Made by a program: the position numbers and the translations under genes
Assembly: GCA_022571415.1 (NCBI GenBank)
Contig: JACZXW010000017.1
Coordinates: 1-35,712 of the forward strand
Direction: 5' to 3'
Length of the DNA stretch: 35,712 bases
Source of the DNA: Pseudomonadota bacterium
GTDB taxonomy: Bacteria; Pseudomonadota; Gammaproteobacteria; Pseudomonadales; Azotimanducaceae
Notes under the pieces: model-generated
The model's database searches: none
Seen by the model: only the letters and a program-made list of their open reading frames with translations
What the model was told of the DNA's origin: nothing
In this document: positions 7,218 to 17,589 of the stretch, piece by piece
How positions within the stretch are numbered: position 1 is the first letter of the stretch
Layout: the number at the start of each line of letters is the position of its first letter

Positions 7218-8213
7218 CTAAAAGGAAAATTTGCTGGCCGTAAATGCTTCGAATGTCGTTTGTGCTTCTGCTGGTGAAACACAGGAAACAATGTGCGTGG
7301 TTATTCCGCCATCGGCATACTCCCGAATCCTGTCCTGACACTCTTCCAGGGACCCCAAAATAGCGATGTCATCCACCAGCGCATCATCAAGCGCTCCGGT
7401 GGTCTTGGCCCTGTCTTTGGCTGCCCAGCCTTCAGCAATTGTTTTAGCAACATCTTCATAACCGGCCCAGGCAAGGAAGGCGTTATACACTGGTGTTGCA
7501 TAGTAGGGTGCAAAGCCCCTGCGAATGAGATCCCGCGCCCCTGGCTTGTCATCTGTCACGATGATCTGGTGGCGGCAGACGATTTCAACATCTTCCAGTT
7601 TCTTACCGGCACGTTCAGCACCGATCCTGATATGTTCCATCATTTTTGGAAGCGCGTCTTTCGGGAACAGATTCAAGATGACGCCATCGCTAAATTCAGC
7701 TGCTGCCTCCAGCATCTTGCCACGCAATGCCGCCATATATACGGGCTGTTCACCTGCTTCCAGGGGTATTTGCCTATAACCATGACTCTGGACGGTGTCA
7801 CCATCAAAATCTGATTTCTCGCCCGAAAGCATACTCTTGATAAGCAGGGTGGTTTCCTTAACCCGTGACAAAGGCTTCTCAAATTTTTGCCCATGCCAGT
7901 TCTCCATCATCGTTTGGCTCGAAGATCCCAGCCCAAGAATGAATCGTCCCTTTGACAGCTTGTTTAACACGTGCGCCGTCGAAGCAAGTACTGCTGGCGT
8001 TCTGGAAAAAACCGGAATAATAGCGGTGCCAATCCTGCACCTCTGCGTATTAATAGCAACTGCAGCAGCAGTCGTTAACGCATCCACACCTGAACTGTCT
8101 GCAAACCAGAGATCATCATAGCCTTCGTCTTCGGCCCATTTAGCGAGCTCAATGGTAGCCTCGACCCCGCGAGGGTCCGGGAGTGTCAATGCCGTTCTTT
8201 GGGGCACAGTCAT
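7218..8213 (-). CDS. LLM class F420-dependent oxidoreductase
   Basis: 331 residues with the luciferase-like fold: [52 protein letters not shown] and [13 protein letters not shown]. These are the motifs that line the deazaflavin pocket in F420-dependent LLM enzymes. It starts 47 nt after the stop of the FO synthase gene and runs in the same direction, so it is probably made with the cofactor it uses. It is clearly related to, but distinct from, the LLM enzyme that follows it, so the pair likely have different substrates or act in sequence. Confidence 0.87.
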
Positions 8214-8260: not shown

Positions 8261-10789
8261 TCAGATAATGTCCGCGCTGGAAATATTCTCTTCGTTCCCT
8301 GGGGCCAGTTGGTTAAGGTTCTTTGCATCAAAGCCGGGCCGGTACAGTTGCTTTTTACCGCTGCCTCGTTTTTTTCGTTCGTATTTTATTGCCGACGTGT
8401 ATACAGGGTCTTTTAGTTCACTGGCCCCAAACGATTTCTGTTTCTGTACCTCTGATACTTCACCATAAGTCGTCGATCGCTGTCTCGGCACTCGGCCGAT
8501 GCTGCGAATGATTTCTTCCATCTCCTCTGGAGATGTTTCCTGCCCGTGCCTCGCCCCTGCGGCACGAGTGATTGTTTCATTCATCAGGGTTCCACCAAGA
8601 TCATTCACGCCTGCCTGCAGGCAAGCACGAACACCATCGTGGCTGAGTTTCGTCCATGAGGCCTGGATGTTTTTGAAGCAGGGATGAAGCACCAGGCGAG
8701 AGATGGCGTGGACCAATATGGCTTCCCTGAACGTCGGACCTTTACGCGCACGACCTTTCAGGTAGATTGGCGACTCCATGTGAATAAAAGGCAAAATAAC
8801 AAACTCGGTGAAACCGCCTGTTTTCAACTGTAAATTCCGGACTCTAAGAAGATGCCTCGCTACATGCTTGTACTCTTCCATGTGACCACACATGATGGTC
8901 GCGGTAGTGTTGAACCCCTGTGCATGCGCCGCTTCCATGACTTCCAGCCATTGCGCCGTATTGATCTTGTCAGGGCAAAGTGTCTCGCGCACCTCATCAT
9001 CGAGAATTTCAGCGGCCGTACCTGGCAGCGTTCCAAGACCTGCTTCTTTTAACTGTCCTAAAAATTCGCCGATACCCAAGCCGAGGGTATGTGCTCCTTG
9101 CCAGACTTCCAGCGGAGAAAAAGCATGAATGTGCATGGCAGGCACGACCTGTTTAATACTGTGGCAAATATCAATGTAGGTTTGCCCAGTGTATTCCGGG
9201 TGAATACCACCCTGCAGGCAGACTTCCGACGCGCCCCTTGCCCAGGCTTCACTGGTTCTGCGCATGATTTCTTCCGGGGACAGATCATAAGGCCGGCCGC
9301 GTAAGTTCTCACTCAGCTTGCCTTTTGAGAAAGCGCAAAACTGGCACTTGAAATAGCAGATATTCGTGTAATTGATATTTCGATTGACGCAATAGGTGAC
9401 TTCGTCTCCTGCAACCTGCCGGCGCAATCTGTCGGCTGCCTGGCATACATGGGTAAATTCATCACCACGGGCTTTGAACAGGCGGACGATTTCCGCTTCG
9501 CTCAACTCATGTCCCAGAGACGATTTTTCAAGTATGTCGGCAAGTTCCTGCAATGGCTGTGATTTAGGCAGGTTAGTCACACGTGCAAGCTCACCTTGCG
9601 GCGGCAGCACCGTATGTCCAGCTGCCCAGGATTCAGCGCGGGCGAAACCTTGCCCATCTATTGCCCCCATGACAAACGGCTTAACTTTCGGGTCAACCCA
9701 TTGGTCAAGGTCCATGGCATAGTCCGGGTATATAGCCAATCGTTCTATTAGCAATTTACCGGCGTTGGCCGTCTCACTCGCGAGATTTGAAAGGTGCGGC
9801 CAGGGCGCTTCAGGATTGACAAAATCGGGTGTGACCGGGGAAACTCCGCCCCAGTCATTGATCCCTGAATCCACAATCTGTTCCAGCGCTCCGGGGCTCA
9901 GGTTCGGTGGTGCCTGGATGTTCATGGCCGGTCCAAAAATAATCCTGGCTAGCGCTATCGTCCAAAGTAATTCATCCAGGTCCGGTTCTCTGGCATTCGC
10001 CATCAGGGTATCTGGTTTCGCCCTGAAGTTCTGGATGATGATTTCCTGGATATGCCCAAAAGTCGAATTGGCCTCGCGTAACGCCAGCAACGATTCAATC
10101 CTTTCCATCCTGGTTTCACCAATGCCAATCAGGATGCCGGATGTAAACGGAACCTTTGCCTCTCCCGCAAGACGCATTGTTTCGAAACGCCGTTCCGGAA
10201 TCTTGTCGGGAGAACCGTAATGCGGCATCCCCTTCTCCGTCAGGCGCATGGAGGAACTCTCCAGCATGATACCCATGGAGACCGAAACCTTTCGCAGCTC
10301 ATCAAAATCGTCAGCATTCATCAGGCCGGGATTTAAATGAGGGAACAGGCCAGTCTCATCGAAAACCATCTGCGCCATATCTCTTAAGTACGACAGGGTC
10401 GAATCCTGTTTAAGTTCCTTTAATCCATCCCTGGCCGCCTTGTAGCGAAGCTCCGGCTTGTCACCGAGGGTAAACAACGCTTCCTTGCAACCCGCCGCTG
10501 CACCGTCCTGGGCAATCTTCAACACCTCTTCCGGTGTCATGTATGGCGCTTTCAGCTTTCGCGGCACTTGTGCAAAGGTACAGTAATGGCAAACATCGCG
10601 GCAGAGATGTGTCAGCGGGATGAAGACTTTACGTGAATAGGATACCGTCGTCTGATGTCCCTCGTCGCGCAACCTTGCAGCGACTGTCATGAGCGAGCGC
10701 GTATCGGTCGTAGCGGACAGTGCAAGAATCTCACCCGCATCCAGCTGACCGGATTCCGCTTTTGCTAACAAATTTTCAAAGTCGCTCAT
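8261..10789 (-). CDS. fbiC: Bifunctional FO synthase (CofG-CofH fusion, FbiC type)
   Basis: 842 residues, close to actinobacterial FbiC (856). The N-terminal half is CofG with the radical-SAM cluster motif C63-R-D-V-C67-H-Y-C70. The C-terminal half is CofH with C478-Y-F-K-C482-Q-F-C485. Both halves keep the [4Fe-4S] ligands and GGIHPEYTG / ASWTKLSHDG-type blocks. Together they make 7,8-didemethyl-8-hydroxy-5-deazariboflavin (FO) from tyrosine and a flavin precursor using two SAM-derived radicals. The fused arrangement is known from Actinobacteria and other bacteria, while archaea often have two genes. The start is supported by AAGGTAGG upstream. It lies 9 nt after cofC. Confidence 0.97.
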   Translation of the reverse strand: MSDFENLLAKAESGQLDAGEILALSATTDTRSLMTVAARLRDEGHQTTVSYSRKVFIPLTHLCRDVCHYCTFAQVPRKLKAPYMTPEEVLKIAQDGAAAGCKEALFTLGDKPELRYKAARDGLKELKQDSTLSYLRDMAQMVFDETGLFPHLNPGLMNADDFDELRKVSVSMGIMLESSSMRLTEKGMPHYGSPDKIPERRFETMRLAGEAKVPFTSGILIGIGETRMERIESLLALREANSTFGHIQEIIIQNFRAKPDTLMANAREPDLDELLWTIALARIIFGPAMNIQAPPNLSPGALEQIVDSGINDWGGVSPVTPDFVNPEAPWPHLSNLASETANAGKLLIERLAIYPDYAMDLDQWVDPKVKPFVMGAIDGQGFARAESWAAGHTVLPPQGELARVTNLPKSQPLQELADILEKSSLGHELSEAEIVRLFKARGDEFTHVCQAADRLRRQVAGDEVTYCVNRNINYTNICYFKCQFCAFSKGKLSENLRGRPYDLSPEEIMRRTSEAWARGASEVCLQGGIHPEYTGQTYIDICHSIKQVVPAMHIHAFSPLEVWQGAHTLGLGIGEFLGQLKEAGLGTLPGTAAEILDDEVRETLCPDKINTAQWLEVMEAAHAQGFNTTATIMCGHMEEYKHVARHLLRVRNLQLKTGGFTEFVILPFIHMESPIYLKGRARKGPTFREAILVHAISRLVLHPCFKNIQASWTKLSHDGVRACLQAGVNDLGGTLMNETITRAAGARHGQETSPEEMEEIIRSIGRVPRQRSTTYGEVSEVQKQKSFGASELKDPVYTSAIKYERKKRGSGKKQLYRPGFDAKNLNQLAPGNEENISSADII

Positions 10790-10798
10790 GAGCCTACC

Positions 10799-11491
10799 TT
10801 AACTTATCCTTAAAAGTCCTTCCGAAATTCTTTCCAGTATGCCACTTTCCCTGAAAAAACGATGTGTATGCGATTCGATGCGTGAGTCCACCAGTATCGA
10901 TGCGAGTTCCCTCAGATCATCCGGCGTATCGATATCAAGGCCAATACCAGGCAATTTCGCGACGCTCGGCTCAATACCCAGCCTGCGGGCAATGGCCAGA
11001 TGCCGCCTGAAGCTATCTTCACCGAAGCCAAATTCCATGCAATCGGGCTTTGAGCAGGCAATGCAATTGGAGCCGCCAAGATCAGATGCAGGCACGATCA
11101 TCATTTCAGACCTGTCTTGCCGGCCAAATCCTTCCAGCACGACCTCGAGCTCTTCCGGCGTTACCAGCGGCACATCTCCAGGAAGGAAGAGCATGATATC
11201 AACGCCATTATCTGCGAGATACCTGGCTGCCTTGGTGACCGCGGGAATCAGACCCGCGACCTCCGGTTCGCTTAATATCTCGGCCCCAAAGCCAAGGGCC
11301 AGCTCGGCAACCACATCATCATCGGTGACAACAATAATTTCATCCACCAGTGTACAGGCTTCGGTGGTCGTTAATACATCTTCCACCATCGTTCTAAAAA
11401 ATTGATTGCGCTCATCAGTATTGAGGATGGAAGCCAATCGTTGTTTCGCATTTTCTAATTGCTTGATCGGAATAACGGCTGTGGTTCTCAT
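10799..11491 (-). CDS. cofC: CofC/FbiD: phospho-(lactate/PEP/glycerate) guanylyltransferase
   Basis: 230 residues from the ATG at 11491 (MRTTAVIPIKQL); the alternative GTG at 11521 would overlap cofD. Typical nucleotidyltransferase motifs are visible: AVIPIKQLENAKQRLA at the N-terminus binding GTP, DEIIVVTDD, and LFLPGDVPLVTPEEL with the metal-binding Asp, then GLDIDTPDDL near the end. The enzyme activates a three-carbon phospho acid with GTP for transfer to FO. Known variants use 2-phospho-L-lactate (archaea), PEP (mycobacteria) or 3-phosphoglycerate (Paraburkholderia rhizoxinica). Which one applies here cannot be read by eye. It follows cofD by 10 nt. Confidence 0.95.
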   Translation of the reverse strand: MRTTAVIPIKQLENAKQRLASILNTDERNQFFRTMVEDVLTTTEACTLVDEIIVVTDDDVVAELALGFGAEILSEPEVAGLIPAVTKAARYLADNGVDIMLFLPGDVPLVTPEELEVVLEGFGRQDRSEMMIVPASDLGGSNCIACSKPDCMEFGFGEDSFRRHLAIARRLGIEPSVAKLPGIGLDIDTPDDLRELASILVDSRIESHTHRFFRESGILERISEGLLRIS

Positions 11492-11501
11492 TAGGAAATG
11501 G

Positions 11502-12482
11502 TCATCGGGAAGTGATCTCACTGGAAAAATTCAGAACGACCCTGGCCAGGTCAACCCTGTCCTGCAACGTTACCATGACTGTGTTTGTGACGATAGTCGA
11601 AAGGCCCAGCGCCTCTACCTCATCGCGCAATGGCCTGTCCTGTTCATCCAGCACAAACCCCTGCATCTTTCCAGGGTATTGCTCGACGTAATGCTGCGCT
11701 ACCGCCAAGGCTGTCTGTGGCATACCGAGTTCCGCCATCATCTTCGCGGCGGGTCCTTTAATGGCCTGCCCGGCAACAATAGGAGAGACTGCGATAACCG
11801 CGGCTTCACTCGAGCCTATTGCGTCCATCACACCCGGAATCTTGAGCACGGGATCGACACTGACAAAAGGATTGGACGGACAAACAACGATCGCAACGAG
11901 GGAGGGACTTTGCAGTGCACGAAGAAACGCGGGTGCCGGTTTCGCCACATCAAGACCACTGAAAGTAAAACCAGTGACCTGCGGCTTGCATCTGTCCCGC
12001 ACGAAATAATGTTGAAAAGCCAGATTTTCTCCCGAGCGTGTGTGGACAATGGTAGCCACCGGGTCATCCGTCATGGGAACAAGCTCATGCTCTATAGACA
12101 ACTGCCGACAGAGATGGGAAGTAACTTCGCTGAGGGATTTACCCGCCTCCAGCATTTGGGTACGCACCACGTGGGTGCCAAGATCCCGGTCCCCCAGCTG
12201 AAACCAGGTTTCGCCGCCCATTCTCTTTACCGCGTCGAGAAAATTCCAGCTCTCCCCGGCCTGACCCCAGCCCAGATCTTTGTTATTGACGCCTGCCAGG
12301 GTATACATCACTGTGTCCAGGTCAGGTGAGATGTAGAACCCCAGATGCGTGAAGTCGTCGCCCGTGTTACCGATAACCGTTAACTGACCCGGCGCAAGGA
12401 CGCGGGACAACCCCAAAGCCAGCTTTGCACCACCCACACCACCAGAAATCGCCAGGCAAGTTGACTGTTCGGAAAAATTCAT
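11502..12482 (-). CDS. cofD: CofD/FbiA: (PEP/2-phospho-L-lactate) transferase to FO
   Basis: 326 residues. The N-terminal CLAISGGVGGAKLALGL glycine-rich loop, TVIGNTGDDFTHLGFYISPDLDTVMYTL, and GDRDLGTHVVRT are the family's FO/GDP-substrate site. PSNPFVSVDPVL near residue 210 is also diagnostic. It transfers the activated three-carbon phosphate from the CofC product onto FO, giving F420-0 or dehydro-F420-0. The spacing to cofE is 17 nt and to cofC 10 nt, so it is in the middle of the operon. No odd features. The start ATG is preceded by AGGACAG. Confidence 0.97.
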   Translation of the reverse strand: MNFSEQSTCLAISGGVGGAKLALGLSRVLAPGQLTVIGNTGDDFTHLGFYISPDLDTVMYTLAGVNNKDLGWGQAGESWNFLDAVKRMGGETWFQLGDRDLGTHVVRTQMLEAGKSLSEVTSHLCRQLSIEHELVPMTDDPVATIVHTRSGENLAFQHYFVRDRCKPQVTGFTFSGLDVAKPAPAFLRALQSPSLVAIVVCPSNPFVSVDPVLKIPGVMDAIGSSEAAVIAVSPIVAGQAIKGPAAKMMAELGMPQTALAVAQHYVEQYPGKMQGFVLDEQDRPLRDEVEALGLSTIVTNTVMVTLQDRVDLARVVLNFSSEITSR

Positions 12483-12499
12483 CAGAAGACTGTCCTAAC

Positions 12500-13279
12500 C
12501 TACCTGAACAGGTCCATGTCTTTGGGTCGCAGCAGTGGAGCGACACCTCTTAGACTCTTGTCTTCGGGATCCCTTGGCTTGTAACCCCGCACGATGACCA
12601 CCGGTGTCTTCTCATCTGTCTGGCCCATCACCAGGGACGCGCCCGCAGCCATTTCGTCGGCCGCGCCGACCTGTGTCACAAGCAGCTCCCGACCATAGAT
12701 ATCTGTCTGACCAATGTAATCCTCTAAAGCAGTAAACCCGGCCACACCGATAGCCAGACCCAGGGAGCCGATTCTCCATGCCCGACCAATGGAATCGTTA
12801 ATAATCACCCCAACGTTTATATTATGGCGCGCACTGACTTCGTTTCTCAGGTCAGCCGCACTTTTATCCGGATCAATAGGCAACAGCAGGCACAGATCAT
12901 CGTCATCCCCGTTTTCACTGATAATATTTGACTGGTCGATGCCTGCATTAGCCTGAACAAAACCAAGTTTTTGCTCCACAATCAGCACACCCGGACGCTT
13001 GCGGATGACTTCACGGGATTCATCAAGAATCGCCTGAACTTTACGCGGATCTTTATCCACTTCCAACGCCAGCTCTATCGCTTCATCGGACGGTTCAACT
13101 TTACTCAGGTCCAAATATCTGTTTTCCGCCTTGGAAATAATTTTTTGCGCTATCACAATAACATCATCATCCTGCAGCACTTCACCCATGGTTTCCAAGC
13201 CCTGGTCAATCAGGGTCGCGAGGTCATCTCCCGGTTGCACCATGGGTATATTTTCAACCGCAATAAACGTGAGTCTCAT
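12500..13279 (-). CDS. cofE: CofE: coenzyme F420-0 : L-glutamate ligase (single domain)
   Basis: 259 residues, the size of archaeal CofE. QKIISKAENR near the N-terminus, RHNINVGVIINDSIGRAWR, GSLGLAIGVAGF and ELLVTQVGAADEMA are family blocks that bind GTP, metal and F420. It adds the poly-glutamate tail to F420-0. Mycobacterial FbiB carries an extra C-terminal FMN reductase domain that reduces dehydro-F420; that domain is absent here. The start ATG overlaps the fno stop by one base (TGATG), so translation is coupled. Confidence 0.96.
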   Translation of the reverse strand: MRLTFIAVENIPMVQPGDDLATLIDQGLETMGEVLQDDDVIVIAQKIISKAENRYLDLSKVEPSDEAIELALEVDKDPRKVQAILDESREVIRKRPGVLIVEQKLGFVQANAGIDQSNIISENGDDDDLCLLLPIDPDKSAADLRNEVSARHNINVGVIINDSIGRAWRIGSLGLAIGVAGFTALEDYIGQTDIYGRELLVTQVGAADEMAAGASLVMGQTDEKTPVVIVRGYKPRDPEDKSLRGVAPLLRPKDMDLFR

Positions 13280-13992
13280 CAGGTTTTTGATTCACCGGTG
13301 ATTACGATCCCGGCACCGTCGATTTTGTGATGTCTGTTGATGGAAATCAAAACTGAAGTCATCGCTTCCGCTGCGGCCGCATTGACGAGAGGCCCGGCAT
13401 GCCAGCCGCGCAGGCCTACTGCTTCAATCAGAGACAGGACCGTATTCCTGGCCGCCCTCTTATCGCCAGTAACCAGGACATCACACGCGATGGCATGGTC
13501 TTCCCGCAGATGTTGCGCGCCCACATTCTGAAACGCGGACACCACCTGAACCCCGTCCCCCAGGAAATCCTGTGCCTGTACTGCTGCAGATCCTTTTTCC
13601 GGCAACTGCACTGTGCCGACTTTTGGCGGTACCAGGGGAACGGTAACATCAATAAGGATTTTGCCGAGCAACCCCGGCTTTACTGTTTCAAGGGTACTTA
13701 ACTGATGGGCGAAGGGTACCGTCAGCACCACAATATCTGCCTGGGTCGCAGCATCCAGGTTTTCATGACCGGTCACGCTCAGATCCGGAAATTCCGCAAG
13801 CAGGGCATGGGCTGCAGCTTTTCCCTTTTCCAGTGTCCTGGATCCAATCAGGATTTTATACCCGGCTCGAGACCACTGCCTTGCCAGACCGCCACCCAGG
13901 TCTCCTGTTCCGCCCAGAATAGCGATGGATCGAACCTGATTCGCTATAATCTGATCTGACATAGATTGATCTGACATAGATTGATCTGACAT
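13279..13992 (-). CDS. fno: NADPH-dependent F420 reductase (Fno/NpdG)
   Basis: 237 residues from the first ATG. After a short tail, SIAILGGTGDLGGGLARQW is the NADP-binding Rossmann loop and ILIGSRTLEKG the phosphate-recognising turn; VVLTVPFAHQ and SAFQNVGA(Q)HL are also typical of Fno. It transfers hydride between NADPH and F420, giving F420H2 for the LLM enzymes. No F420-dependent glucose-6-phosphate dehydrogenase is recognisable, so this is the likely reducing source. The first 15 residues are MSDQS-MSDQS-MSDQI, encoded by a perfect 15-bp triplicate that gives three possible starts at 13992, 13977 and 13962 (237, 232 or 227 residues). None has a strong ribosome binding site. Confidence 0.95.
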   Translation of the reverse strand: MSDQSMSDQSMSDQIIANQVRSIAILGGTGDLGGGLARQWSRAGYKILIGSRTLEKGKAAAHALLAEFPDLSVTGHENLDAATQADIVVLTVPFAHQLSTLETVKPGLLGKILIDVTVPLVPPKVGTVQLPEKGSAAVQAQDFLGDGVQVVSAFQNVGAQHLREDHAIACDVLVTGDKRAARNTVLSLIEAVGLRGWHAGPLVNAAAAEAMTSVLISINRHHKIDGAGIVITGESKT

Positions 13993-14670: not shown

Positions 14671-15810
14671 CTATCCGAGACTCTTATAGACGGCCTGGAC
14701 CAGGTGATAGGACCGCACATCTCCCAGTAATCCCGCGAACATTTTATTCATTACAAATGACGCGGATAGACTCGCATCCTGATCAACAAGGACGCTGGAC
14801 CCGCCCCAGCCACCCCAGTAACAGACATTGGCGTTTGGTGACAACGGCACCTCGGACGAATTGAGGCCAAAACCGAGACCAAATGCCATCGGCACGGCAA
14901 GTACCAGGTCCACGCCACTGATCCGCTCCTTCATGACTGATTCAGCAGTGGCCCTGGAGAAAAGATCCACGCCGAAAGCCGAACCCCCGCAGGCAAGCGG
15001 CGCCTGCAATCTGGCCACAGCCCTGGCGTTGCCATGACCGTTAGCGGCTGGAATTTCCGCTTTACGCCAAGCTTCCGTGTACGAGTCAAATACGGATATG
15101 GGCGGGTTTTTGAATGTTCTGCTGGCGATAGAATCCGGATCATCTTCTGTACCAGGGGCACTTCCGTCACCAGCAGGAATCAAATTTCCTATACGGGAAA
15201 ATTCTGATTCAGGGACGCCGATATGGAAGTCTGCCGCAAGGGGAATTGCTATCTCCTGCTGGAAAAAAGTACCCAGGGATAAACCCGTTATTCGCCTGAC
15301 AATTTCACCAATCAGGTAGCCCTGGGTGATAGCGTGGTAACCGGAGGCTGTGCCCGGTTCCCACCAGGGCGCTTGCCCCGCCAGCAATTCAACAATCCTG
15401 TTCCAATCGTACAGGTCTTGCGACGTCACCGGCACATCCATTCCAGACAGTCCGGCAGCATGCGCCATGATGTGCCAGACCTTGACGTTTTTCTTACCCG
15501 CAGCTGCAAATTCCGGCCAGTAATCCGCCACGTTGGCATCGAAGTTCAATTCACCACGGTCAGCCAGCAGCAATGCACAGAGAAAGGACATCGTCTTAGT
15601 GGTGCTGTAAACATTGACAATGGTGTCTTCCTGCCACGGCTGTGTCCGCGCTTCATCGAGATGCCCTCCCCAGAGATCAATCACCATCTCACCATCAACC
15701 GTCAGCGCGAACGAGGCGCCAATATCCAGATCCTTTTCAATATTTGACGCAAACAACTCACGAACATTAGCGAACTTCTCGTCACAGTAGCCCTCGACTT
15801 CCACAACCAT
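14671..15810 (-). CDS. Serine hydrolase, class C beta-lactamase/EstB-like
   Basis: 379 residues from the ATG at 15810; the longer frame starts with TTG at 15840. The class C-like SxxK motif is S69-T-T-K72 (NVYSTTKTM) and the second block is GYHAITQGYLIGEIV. WGGWGGSSVLVDQD near the C-terminus fills the third motif. HIMAHAAGLSGMD is also typical. The DGEMVIDLWGGHLDEA opening marks the EstB-like esterase group. No signal peptide is seen, so it is probably cytoplasmic. It hydrolyses an ester, lactone or amide of unknown identity. It is first in the F420 run and divergent from the MFS gene across the two structured elements. Confidence 0.9.
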   Translation of the reverse strand: MVVEVEGYCDEKFANVRELFASNIEKDLDIGASFALTVDGEMVIDLWGGHLDEARTQPWQEDTIVNVYSTTKTMSFLCALLLADRGELNFDANVADYWPEFAAAGKKNVKVWHIMAHAAGLSGMDVPVTSQDLYDWNRIVELLAGQAPWWEPGTASGYHAITQGYLIGEIVRRITGLSLGTFFQQEIAIPLAADFHIGVPESEFSRIGNLIPAGDGSAPGTEDDPDSIASRTFKNPPISVFDSYTEAWRKAEIPAANGHGNARAVARLQAPLACGGSAFGVDLFSRATAESVMKERISGVDLVLAVPMAFGLGFGLNSSEVPLSPNANVCYWGGWGGSSVLVDQDASLSASFVMNKMFAGLLGDVRSYHLVQAVYKSLG

Positions 15811-15896
15811 CCTAATTTCCCATATTTCGATTGCCGGCAATGTAACACAGGTCCCAGGCTAGACTTCAGAACTCAATAACCTTACCCGGTGCCGCC

Positions 15897-16053
15897 AGAA
15901 AATATCAACAGGTTCCCTTGCCTCCGCTGGCTCGCAGCCGACTGGGCGTCCCCCTCGTGCTCCCCTCACTTCCTCCCGAGCCCTTACAGGTCTCGCTCGT
16001 CTTTCGGTGCTTCGCTTTTACGGCTACGGCAAGGGAACCTGTTGGTATTTTCT
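15897..16053 (-). repeat. Structured element A: ~26-bp inverted arms around a conserved core
   Basis: Arms 15897-15922 and 16028-16053 are inverted copies with 25 of 26 positions matching (AACAGGTTCCCTTGCC is part). Read on the minus strand, the 105-bp core between them begins GTAGCCGTAAAAGCGAAGC and ends GAGCCAGCGGA. The core is GC-rich and lacks a credible ORF. Element B, 57 bp away, has the same core ends and layout but different arms. A lies upstream of, and in the same orientation as, the serine hydrolase. Could be a non-autonomous mobile palindrome or a leader RNA. Confidence 0.85.
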
Positions 16054-16110
16054 TTTGATCTAACGCTAATAAGACTGCTTAGGCTGATAATAATAATGTA
16101 CAGCTGACTA

Positions 16111-16289
16111 GCAGGAGGCTTGCCCAGGACTCACTCCGTAGCCGTAAAAGCGTAGCGCTGAACGGCGGGAGGAGGGGTGCCGCCGTCGGACCCGCAGGGG
16201 CTCAGGACCAAAGAGAAGGAAGCCGGGGGCGCCCGAGCCCGGGGGCCGCGCAAGCCAGCGGAGGAGTGAGTCCTGGGTAAGCCTGCTGC
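16111..16289 (+). repeat. Structured element B: ~27-bp inverted arms around a core shared with element A
   Basis: Arms 16111-16137 and 16263-16289 are inverted copies with 25 of 27 positions matching (CCAGGACTCACTCC is part). The 125-bp core begins GTAGCCGTAAAAGCGTAGC and ends AAGCCAGCGGA; the 3' half also aligns with A by eye (GGCTC.GGA...GGCG or GACGCCC...GCCAGCGGA). The core is strongly GC-rich, with self-complementary runs such as CGGGGGCGCCCG and CCCGAGCCCGGGGG. It lies 52 bp upstream of the MFS gene and reads in the same direction. Together with element A it explains the 501-bp gap; the 57 bp between them (16054-16110) is AT-rich and may hold divergent promoters. Confidence 0.85.
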
Positions 16290-16341
16290 GAACAGCGGTA
16301 GTTTCTTGAAGATCATCTGATCCCTTGATTTTCATTAGGTT

Positions 16342-17589
16342 ATGATGGCGCGCATGTCTGAGCAGTCTGCACCCGTTTTACCTCCTAGTAATTATCAACT
16401 TAGCTGGTACAACACTGGTAACGCGCTTTGGATGGGAAGCTTCAGTATCCAGCAACTGCTGGTGATCTGGATACTGGTTGGTATCCTGCACGAAACACCA
16501 GAACGCGTTGGGTTCGCACAAATGCTGATCGCGATCCCCGGGTTGATATTTATGTTGTGGGGCGGCGTGATCGGCGACCGCCAGGATGGACGGCAGCTGC
16601 TGATCCAGGTGCACTATCTCAGCGCGATTCCGCCACTGGTTCTGGCTATCGCTTCAATCTACGGGCTGATCGGTTTCTGGCTGTTAATTGCGGCCGCCCT
16701 TGTCGCCAACCTCCTCAACAGCGCTTCCAACCCCGCCAGAAACACGATCCTGAATCGGGTTGCGGGTAACAAGCTGCAATTTGCCATCAGTCTTTCAACC
16801 GGCATTGGATCGATAGCCTCCATCGCCGGAACCAAGATCGCCGGAGAGTTGGATACACTGGGCCTTGAAAATGTGCTTTACCTGCAGGCCGCGATGTTTG
16901 TCCTTGGCGCCTTTTTCGTTGCCAGGCTCACTCCCGCTCCGCCACAAGCCCAGATAGCCAGAGAATCCACCCTTCATACCATTCGCGATGGTCTCGCCCA
17001 TGTCTGGAGATTCAAGCTGGCAAGGGACCTGATTGGACTGAACAGCCTGTCGGGATTTTTCAACGCAGGGGCCTGGCTGGTGGCCGTACCTTTTATTATC
17101 ACCCGGGTCTATTCAGGTGATGCCGTCTTGCTTGCCAACATGACCGCCGTCTTCTATTTCGGGTCACTGGTTGCCACCTTTGGCTTACTGCGTTTCATGC
17201 CTCTGGCCCGGCCAGGCCGGTTGTACCTGATCATGCAGTTATCCAGGATTCCGGTCCTGGTGATCCTCTGGCTCGAACCTGATTTATGGCTTGTCTGGGC
17301 TGCAATCGCCTACTGGGGATTCAATATGGGCGTAACCACCACCATGTCACGCCTGATGGTACAGGAATTCGCCAGTGCCGAATATCGGGCTCGCATCATG
17401 TCGATCTTCATTCTGGGGATGATGGCTGCAGTACCCGTAGGATCACTCGTGCTGGGCTTCATTATCGGTGTCTGGGGGCCACTAGACGCCCTTGTTCCCG
17501 GCATGATGGCCTCCACTTTGATATTTTTACTGGGTTACCGACGTACCGATATCTGGAAGTACCAGTCCCCAGGTGCGAGGATGTCGTGA
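16342..17589 (+). CDS. MFS transporter
   Basis: 415 residues, with about 10-12 hydrophobic segments by eye. The loop between segments 2 and 3 carries GGVIGDRQDGRQLL, the Major Facilitator signature (G...DR.GR). NLLNSASNPARNTILNRVAG resembles the drug/siderophore-exporter branch (EntS/bacilysin-exporter like). An export substrate is likely but unknown. Starts at 16342, 16345 and 16354 are all possible; the first is given. Expression is likely affected by element B just upstream. The region after the stop has no obvious terminator. Confidence 0.88.
   Translation: MMARMSEQSAPVLPPSNYQLSWYNTGNALWMGSFSIQQLLVIWILVGILHETPERVGFAQMLIAIPGLIFMLWGGVIGDRQDGRQLLIQVHYLSAIPPLVLAIASIYGLIGFWLLIAAALVANLLNSASNPARNTILNRVAGNKLQFAISLSTGIGSIASIAGTKIAGELDTLGLENVLYLQAAMFVLGAFFVARLTPAPPQAQIARESTLHTIRDGLAHVWRFKLARDLIGLNSLSGFFNAGAWLVAVPFIITRVYSGDAVLLANMTAVFYFGSLVATFGLLRFMPLARPGRLYLIMQLSRIPVLVILWLEPDLWLVWAAIAYWGFNMGVTTTMSRLMVQEFASAEYRARIMSIFILGMMAAVPVGSLVLGFIIGVWGPLDALVPGMMASTLIFLLGYRRTDIWKYQSPGARMS

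Follow-up and report, generated by a model that had tools for sequence, protein, structure and literature searches.

Elements A and B are best read as a divergent twin from a dispersed family of structured, extragenic repeats, the fold of which would act as RNA at the ends of transcripts. We put the probability of this reading at about one half. The window, i.e. the whole stretch analysed (35,712 nt), is contig 16 of the 2.56-Mb genome G000. Element A is located on the minus strand at 15897-16053. It consists of a 5' arm (16028-16053), a structured core (15923-16027, 105 nt) and a 3' arm (15897-15922), the two arms being complementary at 25 of 26 positions. Element B is located on the plus strand at 16111-16289, with a 5' arm (16111-16137), a core of 125 nt (16138-16262) and a 3' arm (16263-16289) that are complementary at 25 of 27 positions. 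Both cores start with GTAGCCGTAAAAGCG and finish with GCCAGCGGA. An AT-rich spacer of 57 bp (16054-16110) separates the twins. In all these points the original prediction was accurate. The flanking genes, given for context only, code for a beta-lactamase-family serine hydrolase (14671-15840, minus) and an MFS transporter (16342-17589, plus).

Two covariance models were built, R1 from nine copies and the broader R2 from 123 matches. The window was evaluated with R2 using model rows exclusively from other genomes. The core of A scores 87.7 bits (E 2.3e-21) and that of B 49.7 bits (E 4.3e-11), and no third R2 match is found within the window at E up to 1. The core of B carries insertions in two hairpins, while the second hairpin of A has 20 bases compared to 7 in the model; in the R2 alignment both window copies show hairpin insertions, together with a deviation at the apical loop. 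Folding z-scores are -5.40 for A and -6.35 for B, with 0 of 200 shuffles equally stable in either case. Hence the folding of A and B is not due to chance.

The core is not restricted to this site. The 15-mer GTAGCCGTAAAAGCG occurs ten times in G000 with 0-1 mismatches and never when read backwards, and further partial copies are detected by blastn. R1 yields 13 matches in G000, 11 in G002 and 21 each in G003 and G004. It is positive in 23 of 145 relatives, the richest genomes holding 10-22 copies. With R2, 36 of 206 genomes of the family are positive, covering 16 of its 37 genera. A single carrier of the same order outside the family was found with R1 (G063). Among 369 genomes of the class, R2 is positive in one besides G000, namely G734. 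Its match has long paired arms as well as the GA/GA and GGA motifs and sits after what we take to be an hsdS-like gene. The narrower R1 is positive in none of 398 genomes of the phylum except G000. The exact core pattern was retrieved from 23 named stretches, all of them Gammaproteobacteria or Pseudomonadales MAGs. As judged from these genomes, the repeats are found mainly in one family of marine Gammaproteobacteria. Viral contigs have no match to the exact core pattern, and phage and plasmid records no blastn match to the window pair; a phage- or plasmid-borne element was rejected on these grounds.

A known RNA family was likewise rejected. Rfam 15 gives 0 matches in the window; at another 17 loci it gives 6 with E up to 5, all of which remain under the gathering score. 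No description of such an element family was found in the literature searched, which comprised open-licence papers and few subscription papers. We therefore call the family apparently new in the sense of being absent from Rfam 15 and from the open-licence literature searched. The loci described in the following are a part of all R2 matches.

Members consist of a core of about 80-125 nt, folded into nested helices and closed by a long basal stem; the elements measure 144-195 nt. The core is characterised by a conserved GA/GA tandem and by a GGA sequence in the apical loop. In the R1 alignment of nine copies, 17 of 36 pairs show compensatory changes on both sides. A larger alignment (A3, all 123 rows, 118 distinct) was used for pairing, for the G.U and A.C counts of the core and for the unpaired columns. 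Based on the 118 distinct rows, standard pairs make up 90.5% of the pair cells versus 69.5% after shuffling, with 842 versus 219.5 two-sided cells, whereby the alignment is fitted to the structure of the model and to that extent favours it. Sliding the partners by 1-3 columns reduces standard pairs to 31-49%. Weak spots are helix 2 (64.1% standard) and one single-pair helix (62.9%). Conservation of unpaired positions over the 123 rows is high for GA (.94/.96) opposite GA (.89/.90), for the apical loop (G.97, G.96, A 1.00) and for the A preceding it (.98). The GGA loop might represent a CsrA/Rsm-type site; both copies in the window deviate at this loop.

It is in the strand beginning with GTAG that pairing is protected. 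The arms comprise 2673 Watson-Crick cells, 144 G.U, 33 A.C and 118 others, a count that additionally leaves out two armless rows and any row with an arm score under 8. Read in the GTAG strand, the ratio of G.U to A.C is 144:33 in the arms and 97:30 without G104, which alone supplies 47 of the 144. For the core it amounts to 255:47, or 181:47 if one pair that is usually U.G is omitted; neither arm nor core cells are independent events. In G051, G050, G046, G018 and G121 the excess is absent or reversed, with small counts. An A.C in one strand reads as G.T in its complement, so the excess identifies the GTAG strand as the one in which pairing is maintained. Its presence in both arms and core suggests that one strand, most likely RNA, was selected to fold. 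Strand-biased pairing is also compatible with single-stranded DNA. As a structurally well-defined group, the family adds to those interspersed repeats of bacteria in which one strand is under selection to fold.

The stem letters vary among copies while the pairing is kept, as it is in most core helices. Clear arms measure about 25-42 bp, the usual stem 25-30 bp, with the longest stems reaching about 40 bp. The arms had been proposed to be exchangeable. Indeed they are not fixed across copies, but within G000 they are not arbitrary either. They fall into two classes there, AGAAAATATC... (element A, class I) and GCAGAAGG... (element B, class II), each of which recurs in other copies. Two kinds of arms are also seen in G048. 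The copies of G006 have similar arms, those of G104 and 13 of 15 in G004 share a near-single arm sequence, and those within G002, G003, G046 and G121 differ from each other. Dozens of differing long stems around one core mean that pairing and not letters is retained. In a tree of 43 copies from G000, G002 and G003, the class I copies group in a single clade (support 99/98) that includes A, while B is placed outside. This tree contains 14 twins if those of G002 and G003 at a common gap are counted individually; they combine class I with another type in 10 cases, class I with class I in 2 and lack class I in 2. All four twins of G000 (C16, C61, C144, C155) consist of one class I and one class II copy. 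The element at G000:C50 (L003) has arms that resemble different arm families and pair poorly; it looks recombinant.

Two further suggestions on the origin of the arms did not hold. Arms copied from the target were rejected, since copies at different, unrelated sites have the same arms in common and paired changes occur at shared sites. A guide-like element was rejected as the arms of the window pair match solely other copies and remnants throughout G000.

Neighbouring members mostly have the divergent layout of A and B. The 161 elements at 121 loci form 37 pairs of neighbours no more than 1.3 kb apart, of which 29 are divergent, 7 tandem and 1 convergent; this count omits places fetched twice and one of two overlapping matches at L125, and a cut row at L124 (bases 1-97, minus) would make a thirtieth divergent pair. 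A divergent pair is present in only 29 of the 121 loci, and in 9 of 20 loci from distant genera. In G104 three loci (L103, L107, L110) show tandem copies in the same orientation, 200-201 bp apart, with similar spacers and partial units.

Gene context was evaluated for 116 elements, i.e. the 123 matches less five fetched twice and two cut by contig ends; these seven are likewise excluded from the arm counts and from the survey of IS4-type ends. Open reading frames were assigned mechanically and are not gene calls (at least 100 aa for the context count, at least 120 aa for the test of convergent gaps). They are found on both sides of 90 elements, with 50 convergent, 18 divergent and 22 tandem settings; 14 of the 116 overlap an open reading frame. 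Gaps with an element are convergent in 38 of 77 cases, compared to 12 of 74 further gaps from these loci (p 1.5e-5, with gaps common to related genomes each counted separately). This bias could reflect selection against insertion into promoters. The position of each element upstream of, and in the orientation of, its adjoining gene, as noted originally, is correct for the window pair, which, like one other twin of G000, has divergent genes on either side. It does not extend to the family with its enrichment between convergent genes. Of the leader RNA or ncRNA with a covarying stem that had been offered as one option, the RNA-like covarying stem is well supported and the leader of the adjacent gene is rejected by the family-wide context. 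In tandem settings 10 elements are oriented with and 12 against transcription. Together with the flips described below, no orientation rule in cis is apparent, which argues against a simple cis role. At L046 (about 1538-1592, G000:C155:75837-75891) the remnant of an element 3' end may, as judged by eye, supply the last codons and the stop of an open reading frame.

Based on fold, strand and context we infer that the element works as RNA within transcripts that leave the neighbouring genes and enter the gap. Stem and core would then represent a barrier or a landing site for a protein or RNase at RNA 3' ends, analogous to what has been proposed for REP/BIME units, and a twin would serve both directions of transcription. 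A more far-reaching version describes a new class of RNAs that are structured and come in pairs, with a conserved protein- or RNase-binding core and a long stem selected for length and perfection instead of sequence; the twins would face outwards where convergent genes end, spread in part by IS4-type transposition and present copy-specific RNA duplexes of 25-40 bp. This version we consider speculative and, taken as a whole, unlikely.

Mobility is seemingly part of the history of the family. Some copies have their hairpin enclosed by the inverted ends GAATGGYACTTACTTAA. Of 117 copies, 11 carry both of these IS4-type ends (9 in G004, 1 each in G003 and G000), while at the mismatch limit used 106 of the tested copies lack the pair of ends, the window pair being counted apart. 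A direct repeat with a score of at least 5 accompanies nine of the 11 two-ended copies, compared to 6% of mismatched flanks. These repeats measure 9-11 bp and are perfect in three; the criterion used for IS4-family MITEs was a target duplication of about 9-12 bp. An intact gene for an IS4-family DDE transposase in G000 (G000:C115, L194) is bounded by the same ends and an 11-bp direct repeat, and the core is absent from the fetched stretch of this autonomous element. Thus, as far as ends and repeats indicate, IS4-type transposition is partly responsible for the spread of some copies, presumably in trans. The family shares ends and direct repeats with IS4-family MITEs in these copies, but differs from them by the 106 copies without both ends and by a core that is missing from the autonomous IS. 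At the window pair no IS4-type ends are seen, and no target duplication was found by eye. Whether copies lie within a known IS or retron, a point raised at the outset, is therefore answered in part: some sit in an IS4-type MITE, while the window pair has no such ends. Near a contig end of G004 (C164, L141) an IS4-ended copy is flanked by long inverted instead of direct repeats, the palindrome extending beyond the ends into host sequence; this could be an assembly artefact.

The twin-bearing stretch of 466 bp (15850-16315) has comparable sites in two relatives. In G001 the flanks align at 81% and enclose 45 bp in its place, and the G001 genome has no R1 or R2 match. In G004 264 bp lie between the aligned flanks, on a contig with no R1 match. 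As the twin is absent from both relatives, it probably arrived late at this site, whereby the comparison gives presence and absence and not a dated insertion. Where G001 lacks the twin (L232), the interval separating the two orthologous genes contains AAATGACACTTACTGAATC and then CTCTGACCCC. These resemble one IS4-type end and the target-like flanks of other copies and may represent a scar or an independent remnant.

Other gaps are occupied in several species. Counterparts of the G000 gaps C113, C144 and C136 contain elements in G002 and G003. They are not always like for like: C113 has class II in G000 and class I in G002, and at C144 the class II copy of G000 has no blastn match to the G002 contig. 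G002 and G003 share seven gaps with ten element pairs, six of which are starred sister pairs in the tree of 43 copies. Identities range from 0.72 to 0.90, a blunt measure given that shuffled letters also reach about 0.72. All ten alignment scores exceed 100 shuffles each, including two pairs with an identity equal to the shuffled mean (0.72) and scores of 110 and 102 versus shuffled maxima of 58 and 56. The scores of the elements lie between 102 and 250 for a length of about 160 nt. Of three spacers, two likewise score above all 100 shuffles (117 and 88, shuffled maxima 60) over about 200 nt, i.e. with a lower score per base, and the third differs in length (214 versus 41 bp). This suggests, but does not prove, that elements change more slowly than twin spacers. 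In the ten pairs, 50 of 73 changed pair cells are still paired, 28 of them by two-sided change. The share of kept pairing is 0.68 compared to a null mean of 0.45 and a maximum of 0.54 in 500. Pairing is lost or gained in 41 changed pair cells, indicating that decay occurs as well. At two of the seven gaps (L127/L135, L124/L131), and when C136 of G000 is compared to G002 (L044/L131), the orientation of the element with respect to its flanks is reversed. Such flips could arise by recombination between inverted arms or twins or by re-insertion. Gaps occupied across species let one ask whether extragenic palindromes serve the host.

The elements might alternatively be selfish miniature transposons only, with a fold that is a by-product of palindromic ends and of arm correction by template switching; the copies would persist by being harmless between convergent genes. 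The IS4-type ends and duplications of some copies, the arms that hardly differ among most of the G004 and G104 copies examined, the window site without an element in G001 and G004, the bias for convergent gaps and the flipped elements at shared gaps would all be consistent with this. We nevertheless consider it unlikely, though a serious contender. Covariation affects the core helices and not the arms alone, G.U exceeding A.C implies that one strand is selected to pair, an outcome not expected from palindrome correction, and both IS4-type ends are present in just the 11 copies.

REPs for RAYT transposases and attC sites for the integron integrase act as folded single-stranded DNA. An analogous mechanism, by which an enzyme acting in trans recognises the extruded GTAG strand, would account for strand-specific pairing, for inverted pairs resembling REPINs and for flipping at shared gaps, and G000 does contain Y1 transposases (five matches). 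It is rather improbable in our view. The fetched flanks of all five Y1 loci of G000 contain no element, the duplication-bearing ends match an IS4-family DDE transposase, and the tag, located inside the arms, is conserved only in part (G.85, T.44, A.90, G.70; 123 rows). A RAYT-borne REP was rejected for the same two observations on Y1 loci and tag, and the likeness of the GTAG to the REP tetranucleotide is as weak as had been stated.

Similarities to REP, BIME and REPIN units are otherwise considerable. These are also dispersed, extragenic and palindromic, with close units in opposite orientation and a possible function as RNA, and they are located between convergent genes, REP units between unidirectional ones as well (PMC3733652, PMC3116915). 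REPs measure 20-40 bp according to PMC3733652, in contrast to the 144-195 nt, the conserved core of many helices and the arms of free sequence described here. Moreover the REP tag is unpaired and terminal whereas GTAG is part of the arms, no Y1 transposase lies beside the elements in G000 as a RAYT gene flanks REPs, and the copy number is at most 22 per genome (R1, 145 relatives). By size, tag position and, in G000, RAYT association the family thus differs from REP. Taken together, these are structured interspersed repeats that belong to neither REP/BIME nor BOX, although by analogy they would work most like REP/BIME units and BOX-type structured repeats. BOX repeats are modular in their make-up. 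Compared to pneumococcal BOX, RUP and SPRITE repeats (PMC3049150), the family belongs to another lineage and is distinguished by divergent twins and by stems of free sequence. Intergenic RNA-structure motifs on Borrelia plasmids are similar in being repeated intergenic stem-loops with compensatory changes; they differ by their location on plasmids, in another phylum, and by a link of some to protein genes, and the abstract of PMC2674063 mentions no twin or long-arm design.

Free-standing pairs of small RNAs that act in trans, with promoters in the twin spacer, would fit the divergent layout with 5' ends face to face, the conserved unpaired purines and the GGA loop as a possible protein site, and the gaps occupied in several species. 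This appears quite unlikely. Twin spacers vary from 49 to 1145 bp between model ends, inspection by eye recognised no promoter in them, and 10-22 copies in the richest genomes are many for an RNA acting in trans. A retron was rejected: G000 has three RT matches, on contigs C24 and C105 and none on the window contig, and the fetched flanks of these loci contain no element.

Apart from the repeats, the window contains a run of genes for coenzyme F420 biosynthesis on the minus strand (8261-13992), comprising CofGH, CofC, CofD, CofE and the NADPH-dependent F420 reductase NpdG. CofE scores above one of two equivalog cut-offs. Beside this run an F420-type LLM oxidoreductase is located at 7218-8213.
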